DNA of 64,000 nt from the NCBI RefSeq assembly GCF_032050975.1, contig NZ_CP116967.1, positions 744,001 to 808,000 of the forward strand, given 5' to 3'. Of this stretch, positions 602 through 55,948 are shown one piece after another (positions within the stretch are counted from its first letter, which is position 1; every line of letters starts with the position of its first letter). The position numbers and the translations under genes were made by a program. Source of the DNA: Candidatus Nitrospira allomarina. GTDB lineage: Bacteria; Nitrospirota; Nitrospiria; Nitrospirales; UBA8639. The notes below the pieces were generated by a model. It saw only the letters and a list, made by a program, of their open reading frames with translations. It did not search any database and was not told where the DNA came from.

Positions 602-798
602 TGAAAGGAAATGATTTTGCGCACATTAAAATTCGTCATGCAAAAATTCATGAAACCAAGTTTGAATTAATTTATGAAACCCAAAATTTCACTTAGATTT
701 TTTAAAAGAATAATTTTTCGAACCCCTTAAACGGCATCCAGTATCTCCCTCCGTGACGCCTTCCGTTCGGCCTTCGGGTCGGACGCTCTTTAGGTTGG

Positions 799-939
799 CG
801 GGCCTTGTTTGAGCGGAGCGAGTTGGTCCGCTCTTCAATTCTGCGTCAGACCACTCCAATGTGGCCGGACGGGGCGTCAATGGTTTTCCCTACTTTTGCC
901 AAAACAAAAGTAGGTCGCCTGCCGGGGCGAAATCCGGCA
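799..939. repeat. Structured intergenic repeat, copy A (three hairpins)
   Basis: This copy contains three consecutive stems: CGGGCC (799-804) with GGTCCG (825-830); CCTACTTTTG (889-898) with CAAAAGTAGG (905-914), a perfect 10-bp stem with a 6-nt loop; and TGCCGG (920-925) with CCGGCA (934-939). A second copy lies at 55807-55948. Stem sequences differ between copies but pairing is kept. The small ORFs across it are artefacts of the repeat. Confidence 0.75.
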
Positions 940-41062: not shown

Positions 41063-41137
41063 GCGGGAATAGCTCAGTGGTAGAGCATCGCCTTGCCAAG
41101 GCGAGGGTCGGGGGTTCAAATCCCCTTTCCCGCTCCA
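41063..41137 (+). tRNA. tRNA-Gly (GCC anticodon)
   Basis: A 75-nt cloverleaf with acceptor stem GCGGGAA/TTCCCGC, D-arm AGCTCAGTGGTAGAGC, anticodon stem-loop CGCCTTGCCAAGGCG (GCC at 41095-41097), T-arm GGGGGTTCAAATCCCC and an encoded CCA end. It stands alone between genes. Confidence 0.97.
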
Positions 41138-55687: not shown

Positions 55688-55806
55688 AAATGGGATCGCA
55701 CTGAATAGATGATTTCCTTCTCTTTCATCTGGGTCAATGATATGTCCGTTTCCCATAATCCGACGCCTGCAGTCTGGCCAAAGGGAGGGACGCTCTTATC
55801 CGCCTG

Positions 55807-55948
55807 CGGGCCTTGTTTGAGCAGAGCGAGTTGGCCCGCTCTCCCTAGATTCGCGTCCGTCCTATTGAATGAGGCAGACTGGGCGTCAATGTTTTTGGGT
55901 CCTTTTCCCGAAAGAAAAGGACCTCGGCTGCCGGGCCGAAACCCGGCA
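55807..55948. repeat. Structured intergenic repeat, copy B (three hairpins)
   Basis: Stems are CGGGCC (55807-55812) with GGCCCG (55833-55838); GGTCCTTTTC (55898-55907) with GAAAAGGACC (55914-55923); and TGCCGGG (55929-55935) with CCCGGCA (55942-55948). Loops match copy A in length (20 and 6 nt for the first two). At several positions both partners of a pair differ from copy A, keeping the pairing. Confidence 0.75.

Follow-up and report, generated by a model that had tools for sequence, protein, structure and literature searches.

Most descriptions of dispersed repeats in bacteria present them as short palindromes or as transposon remnants, and REPINs are moved by RAYTs. The bcr1 repeats of the Bacillus cereus group, together with BOX, RUP, NEMIS and ERIC (families listed in PMC3110155), are dispersed, foldable intergenic repeats with many copies and no protein of their own. 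Described in the same source is BRE of Bordetella and Polaromonas, a dispersed betaproteobacterial repeat of ~90 bp, which sometimes occurs several times at a locus and overlaps small RNAs. Here we describe an element of ~187 bases (185-190 nt, with several nested helices), two copies of which lie in a window of 64,000 nt from Candidatus Nitrospira allomarina, at 744001-808000 of a complete genome (G000) made up of a single contig of 4,553,057 bases (4.55 Mb). The element is repeated about 100 times in this genome, its stems covary and are compensated in place, one of its hairpins has a covarying third-strand tract at a fixed spacing of 6 nt, and it has relatives in two phyla. On balance we favour a dispersed, non-coding and non-autonomous element whose working form would be a folded single strand in the given orientation, a transcript being likelier than single-stranded DNA.

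The element resembles bcr1 and the repeats listed with it, but is set apart from them, judged by description, by the absence of target duplication, by its presence in two phyla and by the hairpin with a covarying third strand. Like REP and REPIN sequences it consists of dispersed intergenic palindromic units; those, however, are palindromes of 20-40 nt, whereas the present unit is longer, has several helices and resides in a genome with no Y1 transposase over the cut-off. With BRE, compared by description only, it shares the dispersal and the occasional presence of several copies at a locus, but not the length. It differs from a DDE-type miniature inverted-repeat transposable element in that its ends, GACGCC.../...CCCGGCA, are not inverted repeats of one another and no target-site duplication is seen, from the guide-RNA remnants of IS200/IS605 TnpB systems in that the genome holds no tnpB/Cas12f-like gene, and from derivatives of retroelements or group II introns in that it holds no reverse transcriptase. 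A composite fold held in at least two phyla is unlike the usual descriptions of such repeats. No description of the element was found in Rfam or in the open-access papers searched; databases of RNAs and of repeats would gain a new family with it.

The first-pass annotation of this window had recognised a three-hairpin intergenic repeat at 799-939 and 55807-55948. The repeat itself was borne out, but these coordinates are too short, the true starts lying ~45 bases earlier, at 755 and 55762. The full unit of copy 1 is 755-939 (+ strand, 185 nt; covariance-model score 186.1 bits) and that of copy 2, which precedes a gene for an exonuclease III-like protein (Exo_endo_phos), is 55762-55948 (+ strand, 187 nt; 198.2 bits). 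The ends are sharp, at GACGCC (5') and CCGGCA (3'), and the flanks are mostly unrelated. Copy 1 as the single BLAST query gave 43 matches in the genome, and a covariance model (R1), trained on 42 copies all from one Nitrospirales genome, gave 101, i.e. ~100 copies, numbers that chance would not come near. Matches were also present in all 20 other genomes sampled from the genus and in 10 of the 16 sampled from other genera of the family, with counts per genome mostly at or above about 43, and in none of the 23 sampled genomes from other families of the order.

The fold begins with a long outer stem that contains a hairpin, P2. Next comes P3, a hairpin of A/T character, and the 3' end is taken up by a module (S1/S2) resembling a pseudoknot. 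The label "three-hairpin" is an understatement of this fold, and the outer stem had been overlooked. In a structure-free MAFFT alignment of 42 copies (A1, from which columns are cited) the helices occupy columns 2-17/116-129 (P1), 22-32/94-105 (P1c), 45-52/73-80 (P2, with a tiny GC/GC apex), 142-151/158-168 (P3) and 169-173/181-185 (S1). All features of both copies are on the + strand. In copy 1 the 5' arm of the outer stem P1 (756-771) pairs with 864-877 and that of P1c (776-786) with 843-853; P2 spans 797-832, with its apex, TTGTTTGAGC-GGA-GCGAGTT, at 805-824. A TTTT tract at 884-887, the proposed Hoogsteen third strand, precedes by 6 nt the T-tract in the stem of P3 (888-915, CCCTAC-TTTTG...CAAAA-GTAGGT), and the 3' module (915-939) comprises S1 (TCGCC/GGCGA, 915-919 with 926-930) and S2 (TGCCGGG/TCCGGCA, 920-926 with 933-939). 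The corresponding parts of copy 2 are P1 at 55763-55778, pairing with 55874-55886, P1c at 55783-55793, pairing with 55853-55863, P2 at 55805-55840 with its apex at 55813-55832, the TTTT tract proposed as third strand at 55893-55896, P3 at 55897-55924 (GGGTCC-TTTTC...GAAAA-GGACCT) and the 3' module at 55924-55948 (S1 TCGGC/GCCGA and S2 TGCCGGG/CCCGGCA). Since S1 and S2 have one G in common, the module would form either a tight pseudoknot or alternative folds. The apex of P2, nearly invariant as TTGTYTGAGCnnnGCGAGTT, is the most conserved stretch across phyla; it might speculatively be drawn in a kink-turn-like manner, with tandem G.A pairs beside two G-C pairs.

The arms of P3 read CCTACTTTTG/CAAAAGTAGG in copy 1 and GGTCCTTTTC/GAAAAGGACC in copy 2, and differ by four two-sided changes, three C-G/G-C flips and one A-T to C-G. 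The earlier claims that at least four base pairs of the second stem had changed on both sides, and that a G-T pair in stems 1 and 3 is G-C in the other copy, were both confirmed, the former in P3 and the latter once in P2 and once in the last hairpin. When covariation was tested for significance in A1, two-sided changes were found in 35 of the 54 pairs, and standard pairs made up 90.4% of 2,261 pair cells as against 81.4% after shuffling, a count that includes helix 6 set one column off. The covariation score was 0.267 versus 0.112 in the shuffled alignments, the observed value being reached by 0/500 shuffles, and all five measures exceeded every one of the 500. Sliding the partner by 1-3 columns lowered pairing to 32-49% in every register. 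In its corrected register S1 has standard pairs in 90.5% of its cells, and a single pair accounts for the covariation (14 copies with C-G, 14 with G-C, 10 with U-G).

Copies at the same loci in sister genomes were also altered on both sides of pairs, in a compensatory manner; at the locus of copy 2, next to the exonuclease gene, the replacements were A-T to C-G, G-C to A-T and C-G to G-C. At seven orthologous loci in all, pairing was kept in 23 two-sided changes, with 11 others, and in 32 one-sided changes, with 42 in which it was broken or restored; some events are counted more than once here, as several of the sister genomes have ancestry in common, and part of the changes are block exchanges between copies rather than single events. 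Whole modules appear to have been exchanged between orthologous copies, in a way that looks like recombination. Differences affected 191 of the 1,157 unpaired sites, so that the rate was ~9.5% at paired and 16.5% at unpaired sites, and stems thus vary less than loops, contrary to what the annotation had named as grounds for refutation. Cells with G-T outnumbered those with A-C by 69 to 24, raw cell counts being inflated by shared ancestry (by columns, 23 versus 10, p = 0.035). This excess of G-T suggests that the strand in the given orientation is probably the one that matters.

The pattern in P3 goes beyond two complementary arms. In the proteobacterial relatives a T-rich tract upstream of P3 echoes the pattern of the purine arm in parallel: tract and purine arm read TTCTTTT/AAGAAAA (L097), CTCTTTT/GAGAAAA (L340), TTTGTTT/AAATAAA (L315), TTTTCTTT/AAAAGAAA (L313) and TTTGTTTT/AAATAAAA (L341). 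Third-strand matches (T.A, C.G and G.T) were scored over 30 distinct hairpins from about a dozen genomes, a set that includes one accidental reverse-strand match and 11 hairpins from loci found via the apex, without use of P3. With a spacer of exactly 6 nt, 171/198 triads matched, compared with at most 121/198 at spacers of 3-5 and 7-11. Positions with G or T in the arm are the informative ones, because a T tract cannot match there by default, and at these 17/19 matched at spacer 6 versus 0-7/19 at the other spacers. Shuffling the third strands among hairpins reached the observed value in 0/5,000 trials. The register was anchored at the T-tract; an earlier variant, with the stem base set greedily, gave a blurred peak. 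In the source genome and other Nitrospirales the layout TTTT-6nt-TTTT/AAAA is nearly invariant, and in one metagenome-assembled genome (MAG) G occurs in the arm of three copies, each of which shows C at the matching third-strand position.

G.T-A is a tolerated triad in the pyrimidine-motif triplex, and the presence of G, not A, opposite an arm T tells such a triplex apart from a plain mirror repeat. Judged from the sequences, P3 resembles a triple helix of the intrastrand Hoogsteen type, in which the upstream T-tract would fill the major groove with T.A-T, C+.G-C and G.T-A triads. The strands follow one another in the order defined for class IV intrastrand triplexes in the ITxF/TMECO work (PMC4666352), a 5' Hoogsteen strand, a pyrimidine strand and a purine strand in register; pyrimidine-type intrastrand triplexes are possible in RNA too, and triplex repeats have been tied to local rearrangement (PMC4666352). 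Unlike the motifs of that work, the A/T-rich triplex of P3 would stand within a larger conserved fold, atop a 6-bp lower stem, and has covarying C.G and G.T positions. A-form geometry, with its narrow deep groove, seems to suit this lower stem being crossed without a linker, as the last base of the third strand meets the foot of the 6-bp stem and would be fitted more easily. The C-for-G and G-for-T changes in the third strand are covariation evidence for a natural intrastrand triplex and bear on whether such triplexes form in cells. Together with the genome-wide covariation, the compensatory changes at orthologous loci and the excess of G-T over A-C, the third-strand register gives good support to the earlier suggestion of selection on structure.

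The element occurs in two phyla, Nitrospirota and Pseudomonadota, with recognisable relatives in Oxalobacteraceae, Acinetobacter and other Gammaproteobacteria. R1 gave a full-length match at an Oxalobacteraceae locus, with 50.3 bits and E 3e-11, and scored 39-41 bits at two loci of Acinetobacter baumannii. The apex pattern was found in 13/369 and the P3 pattern in 9/369 sampled genomes of the class, with zero matches for the reversed-pattern controls. These strict patterns will have missed relatives, and not all 13 apex matches are members, as some fall in apparent coding sequence and others in hairpins that lack P3 (L310, L316, L308, L318); the remaining ones keep the architecture with a wholly different stem sequence. 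Among the matches listed, one of the named records with the apex pattern was an Oxalobacteraceae MAG, and nearly all the others were MAGs of Nitrospirales, Nitrospirota or Nitrospira. Viral contigs gave no match to the apex pattern. A window copy used as the query against phage and plasmid collections matched only an Acinetobacter P3, and a query of P3 alone, put together by hand out of members of the family, gave weak matches there in Burkholderia, Aeromonas and Pseudoalteromonas records.

By crude gene calls, 33 copies lie between convergent genes, 53 between co-directional and 9 between divergent ones, and 1 overlaps a gene. Direct repeats of 3-6 nt in the flanks were not in excess over shuffles, and no target duplications were found. 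About 40% of copies, judged by eye from the alignment, share a further 3' tail of 60-85 nt (ACACAGAACATCACGTTGACACGAG...), and some 5' flanks have a pyrimidine-rich stretch in common, so that the ancestral unit may have been longer than the present element; examples of the tail are at G000:C1:4323768, 1205723 and 147071. Comparison with the sister genome G011 showed old copies in common, partial deletions, recombination of tandem copies and novel DNA starting near element ends, with few indications that copies have lately moved between sister species. The site of copy 1 is reduced in G011 to a 26-nt remnant, GACGCATGCCGCTTTTCGGCCCGGCA, made up of the first and last element bases only (L270:1387-1412, coordinates approximate).

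In the reading that we favour, an outer stem capped by P2 with its conserved apex would be followed by P3 and by a compact 3' pseudoknot or switch. RNA would be the working form, to judge from the fit of the A-form groove, and a trans-acting factor may recognise the apex, the triplex and the 3' module. The ~100 copies would go back to an earlier, transposition-like spread and to copies recombining with one another, and at present there would be little movement between sister species. A bolder version, offered tentatively and with clearly less confidence, is that the element represents a class of structured RNA, mobile or selfish and not catalogued before, that is common to Nitrospirota and Pseudomonadota (Burkholderiales, Acinetobacter, other Gammaproteobacteria). 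Its hallmarks would be a conserved hairpin triplex whose Hoogsteen strand covaries, an apex rich in GA and a pseudoknot at the 3' end, and a host or element-encoded factor would let it spread and persist in tens to ~100 copies per genome. Several results weigh against the favoured reading. No mobilising enzyme was found in the complete genome: for the Y1 (RAYT) transposase there was only a sub-threshold PF01797 match (13.5 bits against a cut-off of 23), and none for TnpB (PF07282) or reverse transcriptase (PF00078), with the controls positive in all three cases. Nor was there a convincing promoter or terminator on the element strand at either copy, an orientation bias among the co-directional sites (29 ++ versus 24 --), or a clean empty site, as sister genomes mostly hold the same copies or remnants. 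The proteobacterial model scores, finally, are not independent of a short motif, because the loci had been fetched by that motif. The Y2 transposase (PF04986) also gave no match in the genome, but control genomes were equally silent.

The main rival is DNA transposition, in which a DNA hairpin would be moved through a single-stranded intermediate by an HUH-type or similar transposase, much as RAYTs move REPINs; strand preference and triplex would in that case be features of DNA. Dispersed intergenic copies without target duplications would agree with this, as would copies at the edges of DNA varying between species, and the strand asymmetry and G.T-A triads suit a specific DNA strand equally to RNA. 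The scarcity of recent movement, however, and the absence of TnpB and of a Y1 enzyme over the cut-off despite ~100 copies in a complete genome make it rather unlikely, although other enzymes are possible. Of the alternatives in the annotation, RNA or a DNA hairpin used by a transposase, the transposase branch is weakened by the missing Y1, TnpB, reverse transcriptase and target duplications. If the element acted instead in cis on the adjacent gene, as a 3'-untranslated region or transcription terminator, its avoidance of divergent (promoter) regions (9/95) and the hairpins that close the unit would be expected, but the balanced co-directional orientation and the lack of a T-tract after the last hairpin on the + strand make this the least probable of the explanations considered.

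Template switching has been reported to make and maintain hairpins (PMC8794818), and the paired changes might be a mutational artefact in which quasipalindrome template switching copies a hairpin arm and concerted evolution spreads it, with no selection on structure. The recombination-like exchange of modules among orthologous copies would be in keeping with such a process, which could create some of the paired stem changes, but not the third-strand tracking or the apex. Because it acts on antiparallel complementary arms, it should not yield a third strand that tracks the purine arm in parallel, nor would it be expected to preserve a single-stranded apex from one phylum to another or to favour G-T intermediates over A-C. 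We regard this explanation as improbable, and give about the same small weight to a motif of chromosome structure or genome instability, whose triplex and long palindromes would stall replication or bind nucleoid proteins and so promote rearrangement. The triplex motif TMECO of E. coli has been suggested to promote rearrangement (PMC4666352), and copies of the present element border segments in which sister genomes differ and have recombined with adjacent tandem copies. That association with boundaries, however, comes from a handful of loci with no control set, and a conserved single-stranded apex and a 3' module exceed the needs of a replication barrier.

Some features of individual copies and their surroundings were also noted. 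An inverted second copy, at G000:C1:743796-743981, lies ~775 bp upstream of copy 1, and the pair brackets an open reading frame (ORF) of 115 aa without a Pfam match; the entire segment is absent from G011. DNA differing between sister genomes often starts at or near an element (L290:4760-6374, L294 left of 3571, L301, L302; no control set). Dense clusters of copies, arranged in runs of one orientation, occupy G000:C1:3430638-3462776 and 3631979-3651339, where unrelated genes are found beside small ORFs of toxin-antitoxin type and one resembling Vsr (named by eye); these clusters have the look of plasticity zones. Integron-like cassette arrays were considered for these regions (3.43-3.46 and 3.63-3.65 Mb) and rejected, as no array logic was seen. 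Neither the element nor the proteobacterial loci matched Rfam at the gathering score; a similarity to Rfam sX5 at 757-806 (E 0.12) was taken as chance, being absent from 11 other copies, and the sole Rfam match within the window is an ordinary tRNA gene at 41063-41134. Some copies, namely the orthologues of 55762-55948 in L247, L249 and L253 and the copy at G000:C1:222307-222518, carry a small insert resembling a hairpin, either CCTGCCCTGAGCCAAGCCGAAGGG or a sequence related to its complement, within P3 or the loop of the P2 apex, as if a second small repeat targets loops of the element.
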